DNA of 64,000 nt, taken from Candidatus Gastranaerophilales bacterium. GTDB lineage: Bacteria > Cyanobacteriota > Vampirovibrionia > Gastranaerophilales > Gastranaerophilaceae. Under the pieces are notes generated by a model. The model was given only the letters and a program-made list of their open reading frames with translations, ran no database searches and was not told the origin of the DNA. Each line of letters begins with the position of its first letter. Position 1 is the first letter of the stretch. The DNA is taken from NCBI GenBank assembly GCA_944322855.1, contig CALUQG010000007.1, positions 1 through 64,000 of the forward strand, written 5' to 3'. This document shows positions 210 through 36,503 of the stretch, in pieces. The position numbers and the translations under genes are program-made.

Positions 210-710
210 CTATTTCAAAATATAGCCGGTTGCTTTTATATTGCCGTTTTTGTATTTCAGAATATAGTATTCGGGATTTGATGCATCAATAGAGGCTTCC
301 ATATCGGCCTGTTTTTTTCGTTCTGTCTGGTCAAGAGGTTTTCGTCTTTTATTATGTCGATATTTTTTTTCAAGCTTTTCTTTTTCTTTTAGTTTTTGGC
401 GTTCCTCTTCTTCATTGACAATTTTTTCAACGAGGTTTGCCACAGGTATAGATGCTTTTATCTGTTTTGATTGTACAAAGTATAATGTTTTTCTGTCGGG
501 AGAAAGCACTATTTCATAATGACCGGGAGGGATGTTGTTTCCATCGTAATCTTCAAGGATATATGGCATATTCAAAATGGGATATGAAGAGGACGGATAG
601 CCAAATTTTATATGTCCCTTGTCTTTATCCAGCAGACCTGATTTTGTGGCAGGATAAGGAAGAATGTCATCGGGATTGTTTAGAGCGATAAAGTTACAAT
701 CAATAATCAT
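210..710 (-). CDS. hypothetical protein, 166 aa, charged
   Basis: I do not recognise this protein. It has no signal peptide or membrane segment. The middle (about residues 95-135) is a highly charged Lys/Glu/Arg stretch, probably helical, flanked by short beta-rich parts; residues 62-85 (GHYEIVLSPDRKTLYFV) look like a beta hairpin. The ATG at 710 has no Shine-Dalgarno sequence; instead TATAAT (717-722, minus strand) ends exactly 6 nt before it, so the mRNA may be leaderless. It is divergent from rsgA and lies upstream of ssrA on the same strand. Confidence 0.7.
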   Translation of the reverse strand: MIIDCNFIALNNPDDILPYPATKSGLLDKDKGHIKFGYPSSSYPILNMPYILEDYDGNNIPPGHYEIVLSPDRKTLYFVQSKQIKASIPVANLVEKIVNEEEERQKLKEKEKLEKKYRHNKRRKPLDQTERKKQADMEASIDASNPEYYILKYKNGNIKATGYILK

Positions 711-716
711 ATTTCT

Positions 717-740
717 ATTATAACGTAATTTGGATATAAT
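717..740. promoter_or_regulatory. divergent -10 boxes for the 166-aa gene and rsgA
   Basis: TATAAT on the minus strand (717-722) ends 6 nt before the leftward ATG. TATAAT on the plus strand (735-740) ends 8 nt before the rightward ATG of rsgA. The gap between the two start codons is only 38 bp, so both promoters must be compressed into it and both transcripts would start at or within 1-2 nt of their start codons. The -35 regions are poor. Confidence 0.5.
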
Positions 741-748
741 ATGAGAAT

Positions 749-1765
749 ATGAAAGGGCATATTTTTAAAATACATTCGGATTTTTATTATACAAACACTG
801 ATGAAGGGGTGTTTGAATGTAAGATACGGGAAATCCTGAAAAAACAAAAAGCTCAAATTTTTGTCGGAGATTATGTTGAACTGGAGCAGTTAAATACAAA
901 CTCCAAACAAGCTTTTATTTCAAAAATACTGCCTAGAGAAAATTTTATCCCCAGACCCAAAGTTGCAAATATCAATCAGGTTATTATTGTTTCTGCAATA
1001 AAAGAACCGGATTTGGATTTTGAGCAGCTCAACAGATATCTGTGTTTTTGTGAATATTACAAAATTCCGGCGGTGCTTTGCTTCAACAAAAATGACCTTG
1101 AGGGTGAAGAAGAAATTATTGCAAATATAAAATCAATCTATGAGCCTTTGGAATACAAACTTTTATTTACTTCGGCACTTGAGAGAAACGGTCTGGATGA
1201 GTTTAAAGATGTGTTAAAAAACAAAACTACTGTATTATGCGGTTCTTCCGGTGTCGGAAAGTCATCTCTGATAAATGCAATAAAACCTGACTTAAACCTC
1301 AAAACTAAAGCAGTGAGTGAAAAAACAGAACGAGGCACACATACAACAAGACACTGTGAAATTATAAAACTCGATGCAAAGACAAACTCGAATATTGTTG
1401 ATACTCCGGGTTTCAGTCAGCTTAAGTTTGATTTTTTGATGCCGGCTGAGGTCTCGGAATTATTCAGAGAATTTACAGAAATTAAAACAAAATACGGAGA
1501 ATGCAAGTTTTCTGATTGTTTGCATGACACAGAAAACAACTGTGTTATAAAGAAACATTTTGAAAAAATTTCCCCTGAAAGGTATGCAAGCTATCTGCAA
1601 TTTGTTAAAGAAGCAAAAGAATACAAAAAACAGGTCACATACAGCGGTAAAAAAATTGAGACTAAATCAAAAACAGTCCACAATCGGGAAATGACAAAAA
1701 TCAGCAGCAAAAAAAGAACAATATCAAGACGAAAGTCAAATCAAAATATCGATAAGGAAATATAA
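749..1765 (+). CDS. rsgA: ribosome small subunit-dependent GTPase A
   Basis: RsgA is a circularly permuted GTPase that checks late 30S subunit maturation. The order fits the permuted family: an N-terminal OB fold (about residues 1-70), then G4 (NKND), then G1 (GSSGVGKSSL), G2 (RGTHTTRH) and G3 (DTPG), and a C-terminal zinc knuckle with Cys and His (YGECKFSDCLHD...C). The length of 338 aa is slightly long because of a very basic tail of about 35 residues, plausibly rRNA binding. ATG has no clear SD and a -10 box just upstream. Two nucleotides separate it from the prenyl synthase gene, so they form an operon. Confidence 0.95.
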   Translation: MKGHIFKIHSDFYYTNTDEGVFECKIREILKKQKAQIFVGDYVELEQLNTNSKQAFISKILPRENFIPRPKVANINQVIIVSAIKEPDLDFEQLNRYLCFCEYYKIPAVLCFNKNDLEGEEEIIANIKSIYEPLEYKLLFTSALERNGLDEFKDVLKNKTTVLCGSSGVGKSSLINAIKPDLNLKTKAVSEKTERGTHTTRHCEIIKLDAKTNSNIVDTPGFSQLKFDFLMPAEVSELFREFTEIKTKYGECKFSDCLHDTENNCVIKKHFEKISPERYASYLQFVKEAKEYKKQVTYSGKKIETKSKTVHNREMTKISSKKRTISRRKSNQNIDKEI

Positions 1766-12201: not shown

Positions 12202-13338
12202 ATGGTTACTGTATCAACTTTAGTGAACAACAGTGTGAATAATCACATGTCTTACGGAGCCGCTGTCTCTGACAATAAAAAATCAAAAATTGATTTGAAT
12301 TTTCAGGCACATGACAGCAAAAAAACTAAAAATAAAGAAGGCCGGCCGAAAGCAGATTGTCTTGTTGAAAACACATTTGTCAACAAGATGAAAATCAACT
12401 GGGACAAAACTACGGCCATACCATTTGTGCATTTCCCGAGAGGATTGGGCGGAGCACCTGATTATACATTTTTTGAATTTTTACAAACAGCCAAATTCCC
12501 TTATTATGTCGGCGGCCCTATACTTGCTGCACTTTTCTATGCCGGTGTAAAGAAAGACAATATGATTGCCGGAAATGCAGCCAAAAATGTTGCAAAACAT
12601 ATGGCTCTGGGAGTCGGACTTTATTATCTTGGTGCTGCTGTTGCTAAATCTATAATCTCAAACACTGTTAAAGCTGCAAGAGGTATTGATCTTAACCAGC
12701 CTTATGTAAGAGTTATTCCTACTTCAACAAACCAGACAGGTGTTTTCAAAAAAGATATCGAATATCACAAACTTTTTGAAAGCGTTGATTTTACATACTG
12801 GCCGCTTTTATACAAAAAAGGAAACACTCCGAAAGAAATAAACGAAAACTACGCTAAAATCGCAAAAAAATACGGCATTGATGAAGATGCCAATGATGTT
12901 GATTCAACAGTAAAACCGTTAATCAAAAAAACGGTGGTAATGGCAAGAGCCTGGCAATATGCTCTGACTGCATTTTATGTCACACTCGGTATAGGTATGG
13001 CAAACCAGCCGGCATGGGAAAAAAGCTCTCCTGACGGATTTAAAAAGACCGTAACAGAAGGTATCTTTGGTAAAAATGTAAGATTTATGGATCGCCTGCA
13101 TAATACAAAGGTAATGCTTTATAACTATATGATTAAACCTTTTGGCAAAAGTTTTGTTGAATTCTGGAAGGGGCATAGTAAAGCATCGTCAATAGCAGGA
13201 AAATCTGTTATTTTGTCTTCTGCAGCTGCTACCCTTACTGCTTTAGGTTTGCTGCTTGGCAGTACAAGCGGACGCCGTCACAAGATAGAAAACTCCGGGA
13301 CTAACAAAATAAAGGGCGAGGTAAAGAAAAATGGCTAG
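12202..13338 (+). CDS. unrecognised membrane protein, first gene of the GH13 operon
   Basis: 378 aa with no family that I recognise. Residues ~1-60 are polar and low in complexity and carry LNFQAHDSK near residue 30. Hydrophobic segments lie near residues 110-130, 143-165, 250-270 and 325-350. The tail is basic. The segment around VKAARGIDLNQPYV and the later stretch KKYGIDED...W.YALTAFYV resemble the matching region of the next protein (IKAKTGVDINQKYI; DKLGIPKN...WMLTAGVMTP), suggesting an ancient duplication. SD AAGGGA precedes the ATG. It overlaps the next gene by 8 nt. Confidence 0.8.
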   Translation: MVTVSTLVNNSVNNHMSYGAAVSDNKKSKIDLNFQAHDSKKTKNKEGRPKADCLVENTFVNKMKINWDKTTAIPFVHFPRGLGGAPDYTFFEFLQTAKFPYYVGGPILAALFYAGVKKDNMIAGNAAKNVAKHMALGVGLYYLGAAVAKSIISNTVKAARGIDLNQPYVRVIPTSTNQTGVFKKDIEYHKLFESVDFTYWPLLYKKGNTPKEINENYAKIAKKYGIDEDANDVDSTVKPLIKKTVVMARAWQYALTAFYVTLGIGMANQPAWEKSSPDGFKKTVTEGIFGKNVRFMDRLHNTKVMLYNYMIKPFGKSFVEFWKGHSKASSIAGKSVILSSAAATLTALGLLLGSTSGRRHKIENSGTNKIKGEVKKNG

Positions 13339-16300
13339 TTTAATTAATTCAATACCCGTCCAAAAACCTCAAACACAGGGAACAGTTAGACCTGCTCAAC
13401 CTAATCATCTTTCCAATCTGCCTACAGCGGCAGTCAGCAATCCTTTCCCTCAGGTTCAAACATATTCATATCTTCCGGCAAAACCTCTTAGCCCCGGAAA
13501 TACAAGACCCAAAGGAGTTCGTCCTCATAAAGCAAGCGGTCATATTGTAAAAGAAAATATTTTTGAATCTGCTGCAAGCACAGTGAAATCTTATGCAAAC
13601 TATGCAAAATATTTTTATAATGCAGCTTTTAAAGGTGAAGGAACAGATTATTCTGTCGGAAAAATCAATGATCTTGCAATCAGAACAGGTTCTTTAGGAA
13701 TTGCTGCAGTTCTTGCTTCATCAAAATTTTTCCCGTTCGCAAAAGGAATGGAATTTATAGGGCTTGGTACATGGTTTGCTTCAATGGCTGTCTGGCCGCA
13801 GATTATAGGTGCTGCTATAAAAGCAAAAACAGGTGTTGATATAAATCAGAAATATATTGATTCATACGGAAGAAGAAAATTCGTTTACGAAGACAACCTG
13901 TATCGTCCTATGGATTTGTTCAGGCACGTAGATGAAAAAGGCAGACCCCTTTCTGAAGAAGAATACTATCAAAAATATAAAGATGATTATGCTTATCTTA
14001 GTGCAACTGCTGACAAATTAGGCATACCAAAGAATATTCATAACAGAAACGAAGCTGCAATGAACAAAATGGGACAGATCGCTGTTCAGGGTAAAACTAT
14101 ATGGATGCTCACAGCCGGTGTGATGACTCCTGTTATCTCTTCAATTGTTGCAGATGCTCTTCAAACTCCTCTTAAAAACGGTATTGAAAAACACAGATAT
14201 AACAAAGAATTAAAAGAACTTGAAAAAATTGATGACGCTCTCTATGAGCTCGCTGATCTTCAAAGCCCGTTTGATTCAAGAAAAATAGAAACTAACATTG
14301 ATACTGTAATTGAAAAACTCGGAATAAAAATTCCTCAATTACCGGAACAGGAATTGAATTCTCTTATTATCAAAGACTGTGAACTTACAAAATCTGAATT
14401 TGACAGACTTAAGAAAATTTCAGAAGAAAATCTTGCAGGAACACAGCTTAAAACTGCTCTTGATAACGCATTGAACAATGCTGTAATAAACGGTGAAAAG
14501 GTAACACTGCCAAAAGCCAATATGCCGGAAGTTTTGACAGCAATGCAGTCGCTGAATGGTTCGAATGTATCCGGTCAGATTAAAGACGAACTTGAACACA
14601 ACCTTACACGTGCTCAAAAACTGGATAAAAAAGAATTTGAAAGATTGCAGAAGTTTATCGATGACAGATATGCCGGCACAGGCTTTAAAGATGCTTTTGA
14701 CAGACTTGTTAAATACGAAATGCGTTATACCGAACCTCATATTACACTTTCTGACAATTTGAGAGACGGACTTTCACAAACTGTTAAGAAAGCAATAAAA
14801 GAAGCTGTTGCTAATATGGATCCGGAATTTGCCGCAACTCTTCCGGATGCTGTTACAAACTATCAGGGTGTAACCCAGGAAGAATTTTCTAAAATAATTA
14901 GCCGTTCATTTAACGACGGAGCTAAAGAAATGAATTTGATTGCTAATAATTCGTTTGAAAATATTGCAAAACGTGTTATTGCAGAAAGATTTGCCAATAT
15001 CAATCTTGATGAAGATGCTGTTGATATGATAGCAGAGTCTATAAACAAACATATCAAGAAGTTTATGAACTCTCAAAGACATTTCATCATTCCTCAGCAA
15101 AGAATGAAGGATTTATTCAGATTTATTGAAGCTAACAAGGAAATTATATCCAGAATTGAAAAATTTGAAGCTGCTTCGATAATGAATATTTCTGAATCAA
15201 TAACAGCAAACAACTGGAATAAAATTCCTCAGGAATATCTTAAACTCTTGAAATTTACAAATGAAGAAATTGCACAAATTGCTGCACTTGATTCTTCAAG
15301 CGCAAGCAGAGTAATTTCTCAAAAATATGAGCAAATAGCCGCTGATCCGAAACAATATGAAGAAGTTATCAAAAAAATGACAAAATATGCTCAAAAGGCT
15401 ATTGAAAAAGAAGCCAAAGCTGCTGAAAAATTAATCGGTACAGCAGAAACTTCTGCTACTTTGTCAAACTTAAAAGATCTTATGTCGGCTGTCGGCGGTT
15501 CGAACTTTGGTGATAACATCGGTAATCCTGTTTCAGAATTTTACAGAACAACAATATTTGATGTTCAAAACAAACTCAGAAATACAATAGACTCTCTTGT
15601 CAGACCGATAAAAGGTCTTGATACCTTTAGGAACATTGACAAAATTGTCAAAGATATTCTCGGCTACACAGCTCAGGAATATTCTGACAGAGTTTACGGA
15701 CACATTGACAGAAATATTAAACTCAATCCTAACTATCACATGTTTGAAGGTTTAAGCTATGAACAGGCTACAGAGTCTCTCAAAGCTTATATAAAAGATA
15801 TTGTTCTTGACAAAAATGACATAAATAACTGGACAACAAAATTTGAACATAACATTCCGGGTGTAAAAAGAGGTTTAAAATATTCTCTTGAAATAGTCAA
15901 AAAAATTGCTGATGCTGTAAACGGTGATATGAGTGCGGAAACAGAAGAAATTATCAAAAATGCTTTCTTGAAAAATGCTCAAGAATCAATTGAAAATATA
16001 AACAGTGAAGCAGATTTTGCAAAAAGAGCACTTGGTGAAGAATTTGCAAAACTCTGTAATCAAAACAATGCTATAATGCGCTTCCGCTATCTTGCACTGG
16101 AAAACAAGCTTACAAGAGATTTTCTCAAAGACGAAAGACCAAATTACATGAGAGATTATACTCCTGCGGCAAAAATAATTGATGAAATTTGTACAGGCAA
16201 TAATAAGAATTTACATGTTTTAGAAGCATTGTTAAACGAAAGAAAAACTGAAATACCTCTTGACGGAATAGCAGTGGTCAAAAAAATAATCCAAAAAGGT

Positions 16301-16597
16301 AAAGGTATGGATGTTGATTTAACTCTTAAAGAAATTGAAAGTGCAAAAACGTGGTATTTGAATTTTGCTACATCAAACAAAGCAATTTCTGAAATGTCAG
16401 GAAAAAATGTAACTGAATTCTTCAAAAATGCAGCGGAAAATGTACGTTCAAGAAACAAATGGTCAAAACTTGCATATGGCTTACTGGCAGGAACAACAGC
16501 TCTCACAGCACTGGCAGTAGCACTTGTCGGGAAAAAGAATTATTTCAACAAAGATATATATGAATACAAAAATCCGCAGCAAGGAGCCGGACAATAA
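13331..16597 (+). CDS. unrecognised 1088-aa protein with N-terminal membrane domain
   Basis: No known family recognised. Residues ~1-75 are Pro/Gln/Thr-rich. Residues ~80-300 form a membrane domain with hydrophobic segments near 115-135, 140-165 and 255-280 that resembles the preceding protein. Residues ~300-1045 are polar and almost entirely helical, with recurring short units built around xxLDKKEFERLQKFI and LTKSEFDRLKKIS. The C-terminus has one more membrane segment (LAYGLLAGTTALTALAVALVG). The start overlaps the previous gene by 8 nt and its stop overlaps the next start (TAATG), so the three products are likely made in fixed ratio. Confidence 0.82.
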   Translation: MASLINSIPVQKPQTQGTVRPAQPNHLSNLPTAAVSNPFPQVQTYSYLPAKPLSPGNTRPKGVRPHKASGHIVKENIFESAASTVKSYANYAKYFYNAAFKGEGTDYSVGKINDLAIRTGSLGIAAVLASSKFFPFAKGMEFIGLGTWFASMAVWPQIIGAAIKAKTGVDINQKYIDSYGRRKFVYEDNLYRPMDLFRHVDEKGRPLSEEEYYQKYKDDYAYLSATADKLGIPKNIHNRNEAAMNKMGQIAVQGKTIWMLTAGVMTPVISSIVADALQTPLKNGIEKHRYNKELKELEKIDDALYELADLQSPFDSRKIETNIDTVIEKLGIKIPQLPEQELNSLIIKDCELTKSEFDRLKKISEENLAGTQLKTALDNALNNAVINGEKVTLPKANMPEVLTAMQSLNGSNVSGQIKDELEHNLTRAQKLDKKEFERLQKFIDDRYAGTGFKDAFDRLVKYEMRYTEPHITLSDNLRDGLSQTVKKAIKEAVANMDPEFAATLPDAVTNYQGVTQEEFSKIISRSFNDGAKEMNLIANNSFENIAKRVIAERFANINLDEDAVDMIAESINKHIKKFMNSQRHFIIPQQRMKDLFRFIEANKEIISRIEKFEAASIMNISESITANNWNKIPQEYLKLLKFTNEEIAQIAALDSSSASRVISQKYEQIAADPKQYEEVIKKMTKYAQKAIEKEAKAAEKLIGTAETSATLSNLKDLMSAVGGSNFGDNIGNPVSEFYRTTIFDVQNKLRNTIDSLVRPIKGLDTFRNIDKIVKDILGYTAQEYSDRVYGHIDRNIKLNPNYHMFEGLSYEQATESLKAYIKDIVLDKNDINNWTTKFEHNIPGVKRGLKYSLEIVKKIADAVNGDMSAETEEIIKNAFLKNAQESIENINSEADFAKRALGEEFAKLCNQNNAIMRFRYLALENKLTRDFLKDERPNYMRDYTPAAKIIDEICTGNNKNLHVLEALLNERKTEIPLDGIAVVKKIIQKGKGMDVDLTLKEIESAKTWYLNFATSNKAISEMSGKNVTEFFKNAAENVRSRNKWSKLAYGLLAGTTALTALAVALVGKKNYFNKDIYEYKNPQQGAGQ

Positions 16598-18648
16598 TGA
16601 TAGTAAACAAAATAACAAACTATACTTCAGCTCTACAGCCTAATTTTAAAGCGTCATTGCTTGCTCAAATGACACAGAACTATCATTCTGCTCAAATTCA
16701 ACAGCAAGATGCACCTGTTGTGCAAACTTTGATTTTCAATTCGGCTGATGTGCCGGTGAGTACTCCTGCTGCACAAAAATACAATACAATGTACGGCCCT
16801 TCAAGCCTTTTGACAGCTTTAATGAATAAAACACAGGCAACAATGGCAGTAAATTCTGCTGTTGCTTCAGAAACCTCAGCAGCGGCAAAGATAGAAGCTT
16901 CACAAACAGAACCGTTAACAAATTACAAAAACAATCTCCGTTCTATGTTCCAGAACAATCAAGCTGTTATCTATGCAATGATTCCAAGAACTTTTAATGC
17001 AAAAGATACGGACGGAAACGGACTAATTGAAGGCAATGAAGAACCCGGTTATTTTACGAATATGGTAGACCGTCTCGATGAACTCAAAACATACGGAATA
17101 AACACTCTTCACTGGCTTCCGATAAATCCTCCAGGGAAAATTGCGGCAAAAGGCAGTGCAGGTTCTGTTTATGCACCGTTAGATTATCTTTCAATAGATC
17201 CGAAACTGGATGATCCCAAAAATCCAAAATCAGTATACGAAGAAGCAAAAGACGCTATCAGAGAGTGCCATAAGAGAAATATAAAAGTTATGGTTGATTT
17301 GCCAAGCTGTATGTCAGTTGATCTTTATGACGCAAGACCTGATTTGAGAGCAACAGATGCACAGGGCAACCCAAAAACTCCTGAAGGATGGGAAGACATC
17401 AGAATGTTTAACCCATGGCAGGATGCTGATAAGAGAATTTTAAATCCTGCATTGATTGATTATCACAAAAAATTTATAGATATGTGCATTGATCTTGGTA
17501 TTGACGGTATAAGAGCCGATGTAGGCAGAGCAAAACCTCCGGAATTCTGGGATATAATTACATCATATGCAAGAAGCAAAGACCCTGAATTCGGTTTCCT
17601 TGCAGAATGTTATACATACGAAGACGCATCTCCAATGAAAAACATGCCGGCAGACCGTCCTGAAGAAGCTCTGGATGCGGGATTTGACACATATTACGGC
17701 CAGTACCATATTTTCAATATCTGGAAAGCAAAAGATTTTCATCAATTTGTAAAAGATAATTTGCAAATGTCATATAATCACAACAAAGGAAAATCATTAA
17801 TCGGTTCATTTGCCACACACGATGACAAAAGTCCTATGTCAAACGGTGGGCCTGATTACTGTATGATGACAAATGTAGTTCAAGCTACATTGCCGATGAC
17901 TAATCCATATATTGTTACCGGATATGAGTCTGGTGACAGATATCTTTATCCTTATGACAAAAAATTTGTAGACAAAACATTTAAACAGATGCTGGAAAAT
18001 CCTGTATACAAAGATACTGTTGACTCTTTGCTTCATACAAGCAAATTTGAATACAGAGAAAATTTAAGAAAGCTTATCTCCGGTAATGATGCTAACAAAA
18101 AAATTGCGCAGTTAGCCAAAGACCCTCAGTATAAAGGTATTATAGATTTTCTTGATCATTTTTCACTTACAAAAGACAATATCAGACATTATGTTCATAC
18201 TGAATTTGTAGATATCTTTAATGAATCAAGAAAACCTGGAGGAGAAAATCCAGAAATCGGACAACACTTCGGCTATTTGATGAATGTTGTAAGACCCAAA
18301 TACGGTGAATTGATTACAAAGGGAAGTTATATAGAACTTCCAGTCAAAGGCAACAGCCGTGATGAGGTTATTGCTTATGCACGACACAAAGATGGAAAAA
18401 CCCTTGTTGTTATTGTTAACCATGATGTAAACTCAAGACAAAAAGTTACTGTAAAAGTTCCAAGCCTTAAAGAAACACAGCAGCTTGTTGATATTGCACC
18501 AAAATATGGAACGGGAAGCAATTGGAAAGCAAAAGATAACGCAATAGAAATTGATTTAGGCCCGGCACAGGCTCATATCTTTGAAGTGGATACACCTAAT
18601 ATTGAGCAATATTTTAAACCGGAAGAAGTTTATAAACAAAATTTATGA
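16597..18648 (+). CDS. GH13 alpha-amylase family glycosidase
   Basis: 683 aa. A ~120-residue low-complexity N-terminus (with PNFKASL near residue 14) precedes a (beta/alpha)8 barrel. GH13 conserved regions are visible: II as GIRADVGRA with nucleophile Asp308, III as FLAECY with acid/base Glu337, IV as FATHDD with His408-Asp409, and region I degenerate (VMVDLPSCMSVD). A beta-sandwich domain C closes the protein (VIAYARHKDGKTLVVIVNHD). DTDGNGLIEG near residue 130 looks like a calcium loop. No signal peptide is obvious, so it may act in the cytoplasm on alpha-glucan; specificity is not predictable by eye. Translationally coupled to the 1088-aa gene. Confidence 0.88.
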   Translation: MIVNKITNYTSALQPNFKASLLAQMTQNYHSAQIQQQDAPVVQTLIFNSADVPVSTPAAQKYNTMYGPSSLLTALMNKTQATMAVNSAVASETSAAAKIEASQTEPLTNYKNNLRSMFQNNQAVIYAMIPRTFNAKDTDGNGLIEGNEEPGYFTNMVDRLDELKTYGINTLHWLPINPPGKIAAKGSAGSVYAPLDYLSIDPKLDDPKNPKSVYEEAKDAIRECHKRNIKVMVDLPSCMSVDLYDARPDLRATDAQGNPKTPEGWEDIRMFNPWQDADKRILNPALIDYHKKFIDMCIDLGIDGIRADVGRAKPPEFWDIITSYARSKDPEFGFLAECYTYEDASPMKNMPADRPEEALDAGFDTYYGQYHIFNIWKAKDFHQFVKDNLQMSYNHNKGKSLIGSFATHDDKSPMSNGGPDYCMMTNVVQATLPMTNPYIVTGYESGDRYLYPYDKKFVDKTFKQMLENPVYKDTVDSLLHTSKFEYRENLRKLISGNDANKKIAQLAKDPQYKGIIDFLDHFSLTKDNIRHYVHTEFVDIFNESRKPGGENPEIGQHFGYLMNVVRPKYGELITKGSYIELPVKGNSRDEVIAYARHKDGKTLVVIVNHDVNSRQKVTVKVPSLKETQQLVDIAPKYGTGSNWKAKDNAIEIDLGPAQAHIFEVDTPNIEQYFKPEEVYKQNL

Positions 18649-18850
18649 TAGATACAATTTTGTCATTCGATTAAGAAATTTCAAATTTCTTTTAGGTTTG
18701 GACAAGGTGTTATTAATTTTTTAGCAGCTTATTTAACAAAAATTTAGTAAATTTTTTTCAAGAAATTCATAAAAGATAATTGAAAAAAACATATTCATTG
18801 CGAATGAGATAGTAAGTATTGTCAACCCGTTCCAGCCAAAAACATGCGCC

Positions 18851-18909
18851 CTGTCATCCTGAAGCGTGATTTTTGAAATTAATGCTTTAGTCCGGTGTGT
18901 TCAGGATCT
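18851..18909 (+). repeat. family A repeat, copy 1
   Basis: Begins CTGTCATCCTGAAGCGTGAT and ends GTTCAGGATCTT. The ends TCCTGAA and TTCAGGA are inverted, so each copy can fold into a long imperfect hairpin. The other two copies are in the opposite orientation at 19541-19598 and 19697-19755. Confidence 0.85.
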
Positions 18910-18972
18910 TAGGATTTTGTGTGAATACAATTATTTTTTTGTTTTTATTTTCCACCCATTCTTTACTAAGAA

Positions 18973-19009
18973 CTCTGTTCAAAACGATTGAGTATCGTTT
19001 TGAATAGAG
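18973..19009. repeat. hairpin, 16-bp stem with one mismatch
   Basis: CTCTGTTCAAAACGAT and ATCGTTTTGAATAGAG pair over 16 positions with a single mismatch and a 5-nt loop. No T tract follows on either strand, so it is not a standard terminator. Confidence 0.75.
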
Positions 19010-19326
19010 GCAGGCTAAGTCAAAAGCGTAGCTTTTGCGTGCCGTATAGTAATTGTGGAGCCCAAGTTCACTATTAAAAGATTTCTGTAATTCACTACGC
19101 AAAGGTCGGATTTTTAAAAAGATATCAACAGTATTTAACCAAGGTCACAACGGCAAAGCCGTATCACCTCTTCGAGGTTTAGTTATTCTTTTCTCTGTAA
19201 GTCGGGAACGAAATTACTGACGTCGGTTAGGCATACCTTGCCCAACAGCATTGATAAATATAAAATTTATTTTCAACCGCAAGGGGTTCGGGGACGGCAC
19301 GTCCCTGATGGCGTAGTCTATGGGTT

Positions 19327-19402
19327 AGAGCTTTTTAGCATTTGAAGAAAATTTACTCAGTCCTGTGCTGAGAAATTTTCGCACAAAGGCTCTAAAAGCT
19401 CT
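19327..19402. repeat. nested hairpin in the repeat mosaic
   Basis: Outer arms AGAGCTTTTTAG (19327-19338) and CTAAAAGCTCT (19392-19402) pair with one bulge. Inner arms GAAAATTTACTCAG (19347-19360) and CTGAGAAATTTTC (19368-19380) pair with one bulged base. The two-level fold is unlike a terminator and fits a REP- or MITE-like palindromic unit. Confidence 0.6.
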
Positions 19403-19431
19403 TTTGATAAAGCGCCGGTTTCTCTTTTTTG

Positions 19432-19480
19432 TGATACTTTTTTCTCTTTGCCTGCAAGACACAAAGAGAAAAAAGTATCA
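19432..19480. repeat. perfect 19-bp inverted repeat
   Basis: TGATACTTTTTTCTCTTTG (19432-19450) and its exact complement at 19462-19480 flank an 11-nt loop CCTGCAAGACA. The stem itself is A/T-rich, with pyrimidines on one arm. Its perfection suggests recent spread or a conserved function. Confidence 0.85.
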
Positions 19481-19540
19481 AAGAAAATGAGGATTTTTCT
19501 AAAAATAACAAATAAATCATTCTCTTCACCCTAAAATCAA

Positions 19541-19598
19541 AGATCCTGAATACACCGGATTAAAGCATTAACCCCAAAATCACGCTTCAGGATGACAG
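19541..19598 (-). repeat. family A repeat, copy 2 (inverted)
   Basis: The reverse complement closely matches copy 1 across its length, including GTCATCCTGAAGCGTGATTT and TCCGGTGTATTCAGGATCT. Copies 1 and 2 therefore form a very large inverted repeat spanning about 750 bp. Confidence 0.85.
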
Positions 19599-19696
19599 CA
19601 ACATAATCGGTTTGCTGTTGGGCAGGTATGCCCAACCTACTGTTAATATCGTCAGTCCGTAGAGTGGGCAAAACGGAGTGTGCCCACCGGAACCTA

Positions 19697-19755
19697 AGAT
19701 CCTGAACACAGCAGGCTAAAGCTTTAACCCTCAAATCGTGCTTCAGGATGACAGC
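19697..19755 (-). repeat. family A repeat, copy 3 (inverted, diverged)
   Basis: Same architecture as copy 2 (AGATCCTGAA ... TTCAGGATGACAGCAA) but with more substitutions in the centre. It lies between two family C hairpins and next to a family B unit, which shows that the families travel together. Confidence 0.8.
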
Positions 19756-19969
19756 AAGAAGGCTGACGTCGGTTGGGCATACTTGCCCAACGGCATTGAT
19801 AAATGCAAGTTCGTAGGTGGGCCAAAACGGAGTGTGCCCACCCTACGAACTGATTGATATTAATAAGAATAATTTTCTCTAATTTTTCAAACACTACATT
19901 TTATACAAAATGTGATAATACAGCTTTATTCTGCATGTTAAGCAATATTTATAAACCTTAAAGACCATG

Positions 19970-19997
19970 TTGGTTTATATTTTGTTTGGGTTATAAT
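19970..19997 (+). promoter_or_regulatory. promoter of rpsB-tsf
   Basis: TTGGTT (19970-19975) and TATAAT (19992-19997) are separated by 16 bp. Transcription would start near 20004, giving a leader of about 150 nt before rpsB. Confidence 0.65.
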
Positions 19998-20003
19998 TTT
20001 GTA

Positions 20004-20150
20004 TGTAGTACAGTAATTGGATTTCAAACGGAACCAGTCGGGGCCGAGGCAGTATAGCAGCCGGAGCTTAACCCACCTAGTATGTTGAAGTCCGCAAAAA
20101 TGGTTGCAGCCGAAACAGATAAAACTCTTTAGGCGGTAATCAGGAAAGGA
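20004..20150 (+). ncRNA. structured rpsB leader, or separate small RNA
   Basis: The leader is clearly richer in G and C than the surrounding intergenic DNA and contains possible stems, e.g. GGC-AGTATAGCA-GCC (20048-20062) and a long-range AACCA/TGGTT pairing (20032-20036 with 20101-20105). Ribosomal protein S2 represses its own mRNA in several bacteria, so an autoregulatory leader is the simplest reading. I cannot match it to a named RNA family. Confidence 0.4.
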
Positions 20151-20156
20151 GAACAG

Positions 20157-33335: not shown

Positions 33336-36300
33336 TTAGAAATTTATGATTAAAGTTAAGAAATAATCAGATTTGAAATCTTTCAATTTTGGTACACTGA
33401 TGTATTTTAAAGTATTTTTAATACTTCTTAATACAATATCATCAATTTGATCAGAACCGCTGGATTCCAGTACCTGCATACCTTTCATGGTGTTGTCAGG
33501 TGCAATTTCAAATGACACTTTTATTACATTATTAAAGTTTATATCAGCAGAATTTGCCAGATCATTTTGTAAATTCATTTGAATATTTTTACCTGCGGTT
33601 TGTAAATATTCTTTAACAGAAGCATCGGCTGCCAGTTTTTCACTCACCTGCCATGACAATTTTGTAATAGTAATAGCTGCAGGTTTGTCTGAGAAAGAAT
33701 TTGTCATCGACTTGTTAATATCCTGTGAAACAGCCGGAGTTTGGTCATCTTCACCCTGCCCCTGATTTTGCATATTGAAAAATTCTCCATCTGCAGATGC
33801 ATCTAAATTGGCATCCTGAGCATTTTTTGCATTGTTATATAGCCATGAGCCTACACCGCCTGCGGCAAGCAGCAAGAGAACTGTAGCACCGACAATGATT
33901 TTCTTTGTTGCATTAACTGTTTTTGCGGAGACAGGTTCCTGAGCAAGTTCAAATTGAGCAGGCTCATCACCCTCTTGCTGCGGAACGGATGTTTCACTAT
34001 ACAGAGATTCGATTGTTTCATCCTCATGTGATATTTCTTCGGCTGCATTTTCCGACATATCAGGCTGCTGCTGTGAAGGATTTTCTTCCTCTTCATCCAG
34101 TTCAATCATGTCTTCTTCAATATCGTCTTTTTCTTCTACATTTTGATACTGTGAAAAAGGCGGTTGAACCTGCTGCTGCAATGGTGTCGGTTCTTCCTTT
34201 ACAGGTTCTTTTAACGGTTGTTCGTTTACCGGTTCGTTTTCAGAACCGTCGTTATCATCTGAGAGCAATGCAAGCAAATCGTCATCAAGAAGTCCCTGTA
34301 TCTCAGAATCAGTATCCTGTCCGGCGGATGTTTCGGATTGTACTGTTTGTGAATTTATTTCAGCCAAATTATCTATGCTATCTGTATTTGACATTTCATC
34401 GTCATACACAAGCTCTTGAGGTGTTTGTTCTTCAATAGTGTTTTCCTGTTCAGAAGCAAGGCTATCCGTACTACTTTCCTCGTTTTCTTCTCCTTCAATG
34501 GTAAGTTTAAAAGGAGTCCTTTCCTCAGAAGCTGTTGTTTCTGTAACAGAAGCAGTCTCCTGCGAGTTATTTTCGTTTTCAGAAAAATCTTCAAGCATAT
34601 CAGGTTCAAGCATTTCCAGCTCTTCACCTTTCAAATCATCTGTAAGAGTTTCAGATTCTTCAATATTTTGCAGCGGAGCTGCACCATCTGAAAGCTTATC
34701 AACAGCAGCATCCTCTATTTCTTGTAATTCAGGCAAATCCGCATTCTCTGAAAGTTCATCAAGAGTTTCAAGATTGCTTTGTTCAAGATTTATTTCATTA
34801 TCATCAGATAATTTATCTATTGCAGCTTGAGCCGGCTCATCAGTATTGTCCTGCGGTTCAAGATTTTCATCAGACTGAATATCTTCAAGTTCATTAAGCG
34901 TCAAATCATCATCAGATGATAAAAGTTCGAGACTGTCATCGGAATTGTCAACAAGATTAGCCGGTTCATCATCCGGCAAGGTCTCCTGTGCAATATTTTC
35001 TATATCTTCTTTTGTTTCATTTAAAGAATTTTCATCAACAGTTATTTCCGGCTGAATAGATGTGTCTTCTGTTTCATCAGCTTGAAGTTGTGTCAAATCA
35101 TCTTCAGAACTTTCTTGAAGAATATCAACATCTTCAAGGGTATCTAATGTCTGTATATCTTCTGTTTCAAGAAGAGATGCATCGTCTGCCAAATCTGTTT
35201 CAGAAGTTTGTGTATCATCAACTATTGTAATATCATCTAATTTTTCTTCTTCAATATCCGTTTCAGCGGAAATGTCATTTAAAGACTCTTCATTATCTTC
35301 ACTGCCGTCTGTTAATTTTTCTATATTTGCAGGTTCTGTTTCTTGCAAGTCTTCTGAAAGGATATCTTCAGTTTCCTCAAGCAGCAAATCCGGTTCCTGA
35401 ATATTTTCAATCAATTCTTCAGTTTCTTCTGCATTGTTATTGTTCTGTAATGTATCTGTCTCCGTATCCTGAATAATAGAAAACTCATCATTTTCATTTT
35501 CATTATTTATAATATTCTCTTCAGCAGATATATCATTCAGCTTTTCCGGCACTTCTGCTAAAGTATCAATAGGCGGTACACCCATTGGCAGAACAGGAGG
35601 AATTAAAGATTCATCTTCCAATGTATTTGCATCATCGGATGCAGTTTCTTCCAAAATATCATTTTCTTCTTGCAAAAACGGAGTTTCTTCCGTTTCAAGG
35701 CTTGCATAAGGAGTTGTTTGTTCGTCTTCTTCATTTTCAACAACAGCCATGCCTGCGATAATAGCTTCATCAACTTCTTTTTTATTGCCTGACAACACAC
35801 TCAGGGTACTGTCATTTAATAATTCATGGTAATTTTTCACCTGAGAAACAATTACATCAAAATCACCCATATCAGAAAATATTTCTCTGCAGGCAGGACA
35901 GTTTATTATGTGTTTGATAAAGAAAACTTTTTCACTTTCTGAAATTTCGTCGTCCAAAAATGCTGCGCAAAGCTCTTTTATTTTTTCGTGTTCGATAGAA
36001 GAGTAAATTTTTTGTTTAGGATGAATTGTTGAAAGAAAATTTTTCAACTCACTTATTGGCTTCAAAATGGCAGTCTGATAGCAAAGGTATTCTGAATTAG
36101 ATTTTGCATCTTCAAGATTTTCTGCCGGAACAAAACCTAAAATTTTAGCTTTTGACAAATCTTTTCCAAGTTGAATAACTATATAGGCATATGGTTTAGC
36201 ATCATATTTATCATGAATTTTAGGGATACAAAAAGATGTTTCATCAAATGTAACTCTAACATCAAGCCTTAATCCGTCAATATATACATCAGCCAGCTCA

Positions 36301-36503
36301 AGATTCTTTGCAAATGCAAAATTTCTGCATAAACTCAGTTTTGTATCAGCTTCGATTCCTTTTGAGGTAAGGTATTCTGCTGCGGATAATGCTGCAATAT
36401 TCAGCGCAAAAGCTCTTTTTCTTATTTCTTTATCATCAATTTTTACTGCAACAACTTTAGCTTTATCTATTATTTTTTTATCAATATTTATATTTTCTGC
36501 CAT
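33336..36503 (-). CDS. 1055-aa DUF1822 / anti-sigma zinc finger / acidic linker / TM / TonB-C-like protein
   Basis: Residues ~10-155 resemble the cyanobacterial DUF1822 family (ALNIAALSAAEYLTSKGIEA ... YAYIVIQL ... ILGFV). His198-x3-Cys202-x2-Cys205 is the classical zf-HC2 anti-sigma finger. Residues ~255-860 are an extremely Asp/Glu-rich, low-complexity linker. One membrane helix spans about 868-889, and residues ~945-1055 resemble a TonB C-terminal domain (VIKVSFEIAPDNTMKGMQVLESSG). The N-terminus would be cytoplasmic and the C-terminus periplasmic, a layout suited to signalling across the membrane to the neighbouring sigma factor. SD AGAGGA. Roles are inferred. Confidence 0.75.
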   Translation of the reverse strand: MAENINIDKKIIDKAKVVAVKIDDKEIRKRAFALNIAALSAAEYLTSKGIEADTKLSLCRNFAFAKNLELADVYIDGLRLDVRVTFDETSFCIPKIHDKYDAKPYAYIVIQLGKDLSKAKILGFVPAENLEDAKSNSEYLCYQTAILKPISELKNFLSTIHPKQKIYSSIEHEKIKELCAAFLDDEISESEKVFFIKHIINCPACREIFSDMGDFDVIVSQVKNYHELLNDSTLSVLSGNKKEVDEAIIAGMAVVENEEDEQTTPYASLETEETPFLQEENDILEETASDDANTLEDESLIPPVLPMGVPPIDTLAEVPEKLNDISAEENIINNENENDEFSIIQDTETDTLQNNNNAEETEELIENIQEPDLLLEETEDILSEDLQETEPANIEKLTDGSEDNEESLNDISAETDIEEEKLDDITIVDDTQTSETDLADDASLLETEDIQTLDTLEDVDILQESSEDDLTQLQADETEDTSIQPEITVDENSLNETKEDIENIAQETLPDDEPANLVDNSDDSLELLSSDDDLTLNELEDIQSDENLEPQDNTDEPAQAAIDKLSDDNEINLEQSNLETLDELSENADLPELQEIEDAAVDKLSDGAAPLQNIEESETLTDDLKGEELEMLEPDMLEDFSENENNSQETASVTETTASEERTPFKLTIEGEENEESSTDSLASEQENTIEEQTPQELVYDDEMSNTDSIDNLAEINSQTVQSETSAGQDTDSEIQGLLDDDLLALLSDDNDGSENEPVNEQPLKEPVKEEPTPLQQQVQPPFSQYQNVEEKDDIEEDMIELDEEEENPSQQQPDMSENAAEEISHEDETIESLYSETSVPQQEGDEPAQFELAQEPVSAKTVNATKKIIVGATVLLLLAAGGVGSWLYNNAKNAQDANLDASADGEFFNMQNQGQGEDDQTPAVSQDINKSMTNSFSDKPAAITITKLSWQVSEKLAADASVKEYLQTAGKNIQMNLQNDLANSADINFNNVIKVSFEIAPDNTMKGMQVLESSGSDQIDDIVLRSIKNTLKYISVPKLKDFKSDYFLTLIINF

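Follow-up and report, generated by a model that had tools for sequence, protein, structure and literature searches.

Two paralogous membrane proteins and a divergent GH13 enzyme form a conserved gene trio in Gastranaerophilales, the candidate core of a membrane-tethered alpha-glucan complex

Overview

In an uncultured gut lineage related to the cyanobacteria, a near-core gene set appears to couple GH13 catalysis to a new family of membrane proteins. The set consists of two paralogous membrane proteins, P1 and P2, and a GH13 protein, P3. This trio is probably (we put it at roughly 0.55) the core of a membrane-tethered complex that would process alpha-glucan or maltooligosaccharides, with a giant GH13 protein as a partner. 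The reading is suggested by two GH13s of maltooligosaccharide type, whose best PDB relatives act on maltodextrins, a paralogous membrane pair, the fusion of P2 with a GH13 in some relatives and the joint absence of the components from others. It gives a testable role to four protein families that are in the libraries either absent or matched only as divergent GH13, and it points to an undescribed way in which reactions of starch-like sugars are carried out at the membrane.

Bacterial intracellular alpha-glucan enzymes are usually described as soluble and, to our knowledge, a tethered P1/P2–GH13 arrangement is undescribed in bacteria. Literature searches found no description of the P1–P2–GH13 module, and the accessible portion of a 2024 review of prokaryotic alpha-glucan enzymes (PMC11046441) uses none of the terms “membrane-bound”, “membrane-associated”, “integral membrane” and “inner membrane”. 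The use of starch, glycogen and amylose has been reported for the Melainabacteria, together with genes for alpha-amylase and pullulanase (PMC3787301).

Organisation of the trio locus

The window, a stretch of 64,000 nucleotides, is part of a Candidatus Gastranaerophilales genome of 2.01 Mb (G000, contig C7) and carries the three coupled genes on its forward strand (Table 1). The ORF list gives the gene boundaries as a first-pass annotation had described them: P1 and P2 overlap by 8 nt, while the stop codon of P2 and the start codon of P3 have one base in common (...TAATG). In 65 trios compared by their longest-ORF starts, P1 and P2 are for the most part −1 to +3 nt apart, and P2 and P3 for the most part −17 to +3 nt, and coupling is therefore a general trait. 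PADLOC returned no match, on which ground a reading as a defence system was rejected.

With regard to the surroundings, mfd-ppiC-hldE-like genes are found upstream of the trio in G000. The 1.5 kb between the trio and rpsB (18649–20156) is devoid of long ORFs and contains imperfect direct and inverted repeats, with 67-nt copies at 19535 and 19691 and an inverted copy near 18851–18949; Rfam gave no match in this repeat-bearing stretch. Elsewhere in the window, a 1055-aa protein encoded on the reverse strand (33336–36503) presents the unusual combination of a zf-HC2 anti-sigma-type zinc finger (residues 174–206) and a weak TonB C-terminal match (residues 973–1041).

Table 1. Positions of the trio genes and their features in the window, and of the giant GH13 genes in their own loci
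Feature	Position (nt)	Residues	Strand	Description	Basis
P1	12202–13338		+	378 aa, short paralogue of P2	ORF list
P1 hydrophobic segments		94–112, 134–152, 250–268, 335–353	+		family-averaged hydropathy
P1 region homologous to P2	12358–13002	53–267	+	includes GIDLNQPY loop	hhalign
P2	13331–16597		+	1088 aa, paralogue of P1	ORF list
P2 hydrophobic segments		112–130, 142–160, 256–274, 1047–1065	+		family-averaged hydropathy
P2 region homologous to P1	13541–14149	71–273	+	GVDINQKY loop	hhalign
P2 large helical domain	14153–16468	275–1046	+	between hydrophobic segments 3 and 4	AF2 secondary structure
P2 internal repeat, copy 1	14381–14464	351–378	+		local alignment
P2 internal repeat, copy 2	14618–14701	430–457	+		local alignment
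P3	16597–18648		+	683 aa GH13; variable N-terminal extension 1–109	ORF list
GH13 region I	17296–17316	234–240	+	DLPSCMS, without canonical Asn-His	alignment
Catalytic nucleophile	17518–17520	Asp308	+	region II GIRAD; 65/65 conserved	
Acid/base	17605–17607	Glu337	+	region III; 65/65 conserved	
Region IV aspartate	17821–17823	Asp409	+	THDD; 65/65 conserved	
C-terminal tail	18628–18645		+	VYKQNL; tail motif in 43/65	
Giant GH13s	L190 4731–8528; L173 5252–9679; L175 11019–15353; L179 3092–6928; L181 11184–15473; L183 3345–7412			F-x-G motif	

The membrane proteins P1 and P2

On profile comparison, P1 and P2 are distant paralogues. With 65-sequence profiles, hhalign aligned the two proteins over 180 columns at a probability of 95.8% (E 8.3e-9), and profiles of close relatives gave an E of 1.7e-4 and a probability of 49%; the control comparisons of P1 with P3 (E 0.25) and of P2 with P3 (E 0.56) were not significant. 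Furthermore, an HMM of P2 recovered the P1 proteins of outgroup genomes at E values down to 4.6e-11. The duplication that had been suggested from one shared region and the similar helices after it is borne out by these comparisons, under which the two proteins are homologous, and the unrelated folds that had been named as a refuting outcome did not emerge.

P1 and P2 have a common layout, in which a pair of hydrophobic segments is followed by a GxDxNQxY loop, a third segment and a C-terminal fourth one, at matching positions. The segments are of moderate hydrophobicity (family-mean KD 1.06–1.77), the N-terminus of P1 is variable and of low confidence, and the charge pattern of both proteins is ambiguous under the positive-inside rule, in the family as well as in the outgroups. 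What distinguishes P2 from P1 is a helical domain of approximately 770 residues. The unfused P2 proteins of the outgroups have only some 500–625 aa, and the helical domain is therefore longer in the gut order. The first-pass annotation had attributed the size of P2 to a long helical repeat region, which holds for the helical insert and hardly for the repeats: a single clear internal repeat was found, in two copies of some 28 residues, with a score of 65 against a shuffle maximum of 40. The repeat-bearing stretch is largely absent beyond close relatives, the occupancy of residues 351–425 being 6–7%.

No Pfam or NCBIfam model was found above cut-off for P1 or P2, and the weak Pfam matches of P2, the best of which was COG6_C (17.6 bits against a cut-off of 26.4), were rejected as below cut-off and eukaryotic. 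Sequence comparison with the PDB yielded weak matches only, mostly helical and designed proteins. The AF2 models have a mean pLDDT of 66.6 for P1, which is weak, and 76.2 for P2, and Foldseek found no match at E<=0.001 for either of them. The best VIA match of P2 reached a Z of 7.6 (rmsd 6.4, 200 aligned residues) and that of P1, from the weak model, a Z of 6.9 (rmsd 4.3, 121 aligned), both in a range common for helical models. The middling helical resemblance of P2 to XPR1 (Z up to 7.6) and that of P1 to designed bundles and BAR domains (Z under 7) were both read as uninformative. As far as the Pfam, NCBIfam and PDB comparisons go, the membrane partners would represent a new family, which agrees with the earlier statement that neither protein matches a known one.

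The GH13 enzyme P3

The profile of P3 matches 107 PDB sequences at E<=0.001, with a best E of 6.8e-26. At its C-terminus, the Pfam model Alpha-amylase_C scores above cut-off, while Alpha-amylase itself stays below (19.1 bits against a cut-off of 22). Apart from Asp308, Glu337 and Asp409, the residues D234, R306 and H408 are also identical in 65/65 homologues. Region I of the P3 family reads DLPSCMS or DLPSCAS, so the canonical Asn-His of the alpha-amylase type is missing. The earlier description of an intact triad beside a degenerate region I is correct on both counts, and the PDB relatives together with the conserved catalytic residues speak for the glucan-type enzyme that had been proposed. 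Since region I of the maltosyltransferase departs from the canonical form too, this deviation would lower the claim to a particular subfamily and not the GH13 membership of P3; because region I is non-canonical, the activity of P3 is not guaranteed. The chemistry of the trio is very likely GH13 chemistry.

P3 has neither a signal peptide nor a hydrophobic segment, and no export signal was seen on P1, P2 or P3. The nearest paralogue of P3 is the second GH13 of the same genome (contig C5; L151 4989–6638), a secreted type which, like its relatives in L107 and L108, has a typical signal peptide by eye. The YKQN-type tail of P3 recurs in the order and was not seen in the GH13s of other families. 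Additionally, the N-termini of P2 (13331–13400) and P3 (16597–16923) from the same genome often have a similar NLI..YL.N-type start that precedes a low-complexity linker. As judged by eye only, these starts could be a shared docking motif.

Fusion and conservation of the trio

P2 and a GH13 are found in a single ORF in L179 (986 aa), L182 (1082 aa) and L183 (1030 aa), from the outgroup genomes G167, G157 and G147, which belong to three genera and the last of which is a single-contig genome. The fused GH13 begins a few tens of residues past the last hydrophobic segment and keeps its motifs. In the phylogeny, the fused proteins form one clade (support 100/99), and the secreted paralogues fall outside the clade of the trio GH13s of the class (100/100). 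G167 carries two trios, one fused (L179) and one unfused (L180). Because P2 and the GH13 are fused in three outgroup genomes, there is strong evidence, with the fusion as its strongest element, for a P3 that acts attached to P2, and the membrane tethering of the GH13 that the first-pass annotation had proposed is supported.

The three genes also travel together. Of the 146 family genomes, 136 have both P1 and P2 and the other 10 have neither; GH13 matches occur in all 146, those of the 10 trio-lacking genomes with paralogue-grade scores only. Loci that were selected because they contain the complete set favour intact trios, and the unbiased counts come from 30 named loci for which similarity to the GH13 was the sole criterion and from the loci found by the P2 profile outside the family. 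P1 and P2 lie directly upstream of a trio-type GH13 in 27 of the 30 named loci, although in two of the 27 a contig end truncates the GH13; the remaining three comprise one truncated locus and two with a secreted-type paralogue. From one genus to another the neighbouring genes change and the trio remains. With the P2 profile, the trio is also detected in one other family of the order and two more of the class; the genomes sampled elsewhere in the phylum gave no match. Outside the family, P1 adjoins P2 in 14/14 loci and the GH13 is next to P2 or fused with it in 13 of them, the contig ending in the other (L185). Conservation in relatives, on which the earlier proposal had been made to depend, therefore extends over several families, and the fusion, the order and the joint absence make a specific interaction testable.

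A divergent gene of about 770–800 aa adjoins the trio in L132 (10240–12579), and similar genes are found in L135, L140, L141 and L148, in genera with a downstream giant; the L132 copy has AAA-type and TPR matches.

A giant GH13 as fourth component

In seven outgroup loci, the gene of a giant GH13-like protein of 1211–1493 aa neighbours the trio in divergent orientation; in seven family loci from six genera, it lies immediately downstream of the trio. In G000 the giant is unlinked (contig C8, locus L190; 1265 aa), and it is homologous to all the trio-adjacent ones. Residues D784, E833 and D914 of regions II, III and IV (L190 numbering) are invariant in 14 sequences, by which the giant is classed as a divergent GH13; its profile similarity to P3 is not significant.

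The giant was detected in 37 of 38 trio carriers tested and in 1 of 22 non-carriers (Fisher p 6e-14, with related genomes counted as independent). Within the family, the figures are 26/27 carriers and 1/10 non-carriers (p 8e-7, counted in the same way). The exceptions are G058, with the giant and no trio, and G052, with the trio and no giant. Trio and giant seem to be jointly absent on separate occasions in genera g11, g15 and g18 and in the genome G089.

The start of the giants is very variable apart from an F-x-G motif near the N-terminus (F32 and G34 in L190), found in all 14 aligned sequences. N-terminal FxG is not enriched in the neighbouring genes (76/602 against 68/602 in the next stretch), and the motif is therefore taken as a feature of the giants, not one shown proteome-wide.

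Proposed model and alternative explanations

In the favoured model of a membrane-tethered GH13 complex, P1 and P2 would form a membrane scaffold, to which the helical domain of P2 would add an interaction platform. P3, soluble and related to the secreted GH13 paralogue that G000 also encodes, would dock on P2, to which it is covalently fused behind the last hydrophobic segment in one outgroup clade. The giant, cyclomaltodextrinase/neopullulanase-like, would be the functional partner of the trio, whether linked or unlinked, and the reaction may be the transfer or trimming of maltosyl or maltooligosaccharide units. From these data we infer that the proteins associate physically in species that lack the fusion, that the substrate is an alpha-1,4-glucan and that P1 and P2 act as the scaffold. 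The complex may face the cytoplasm, for which the missing signal peptide speaks and on which the charge distribution does not decide. More tentatively, the two new-family scaffold paralogues and the two divergent GH13s might constitute an undescribed bacterial alpha-glucan metabolon, converting maltooligosaccharides at or across the membrane independently of the classical glycogen pathway in several families of one class.

Among the alternatives, P1 and P2 could be a novel maltodextrin transporter or channel that the GH13 serves as an ancillary or hydrolysing subunit, in analogy to SLC3/SLC7 pairs. Such a function would suit two paralogous membrane proteins that come as a pair, contribute four hydrophobic segments apiece (eight in total) and are coupled or fused to a GH13. 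However, the segments look weak for a carrier, neither protein has sequence or fold similarity to any transporter, and the catalytic triad of P3 is intact in 65/65 homologues, whereas SLC3 subunits are classically non-catalytic. We regard a transporter as unlikely.

A storage function had been raised in the first-pass annotation, and in this case the trio would anchor and remodel a glycogen-type granule at the membrane. G000 does encode a short phosphorylase-type protein as well as a GT5 glycogen synthase (contig C4, E 4.6e-74), and the GH13 pair has maltosyltransferase-like and cyclomaltodextrinase-like relatives. Nevertheless, GT5 is kept in 10/10 of the trio-lacking family genomes, and no GT5 match at E<=1e-20 was found in the trio-carrying outgroup genomes G195, G157 and G147. 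As genomes without the trio retain GT5 and the trio does not require it, and as the phosphorylase profile is uncorrelated with trio presence, the storage role is not supported and appears improbable.

The absence from P3 of the signal peptide of its secreted paralogue, and of an export signal from every trio protein, makes it decidedly improbable that the complex sits on the outer, periplasmic side to build or trim an envelope glucan, even though the nearest paralogue of P3 is secreted and the charge distribution, with loops one and three as positive as the others, is compatible with an outward C-terminus. Finally, P3 could be a conventional soluble enzyme of maltodextrin metabolism whose sole tie to two functionally unrelated membrane proteins is a common operon. 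We consider this very unlikely: P3 has no hydrophobic segment and maltodextrin GH13s are common, but three P2–P3 fusions, an order conserved across families, the joint absence and the co-occurrence of an unlinked second GH13 argue against this.

Comparison with known systems

For GH13-fold proteins tied to membrane partners, a known case is that of the SLC3 (rBAT/4F2hc)–SLC7 transporters, in which SLC3 is an animal, single-pass and classically non-catalytic protein. The likeness to the trio is one of analogy only, as P1 and P2 have no transporter similarity.

The best PDB relative of P3 is the maltodextrin glycosyltransferase (maltosyltransferase) of Thermotoga maritima (PDB 1gju/1gjw, GH13; profile E 6.8e-26). 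In the alignment, both proteins lack Asn-His in region I and have a PRT motif ahead of the barrel, although identity is low and the alignment partial, in two to three separate stretches. Unlike the T. maritima enzyme, P3 has a variable N-terminal extension, a C-terminal tail and the P1/P2 partners, and is fused to P2 in relatives. P3 thus appears to be related to the 1gju-type maltosyltransferases, with maltosyl transfer as a putative activity. The GH13 alpha-amylases 4gkl (9.9e-26) and 3dhu (2.7e-22) have profile scores to P3 comparable with the best, and we know of no membrane partners for them.

With regard to the giant, its best PDB relatives are found in the cyclomaltodextrinase/neopullulanase/maltogenic amylase group (1sma, 1j0h and 1ea9; E 4e-32), from which it differs in its size, in the long insertions between its GH13 motifs and in its co-occurrence with P1 and P2.
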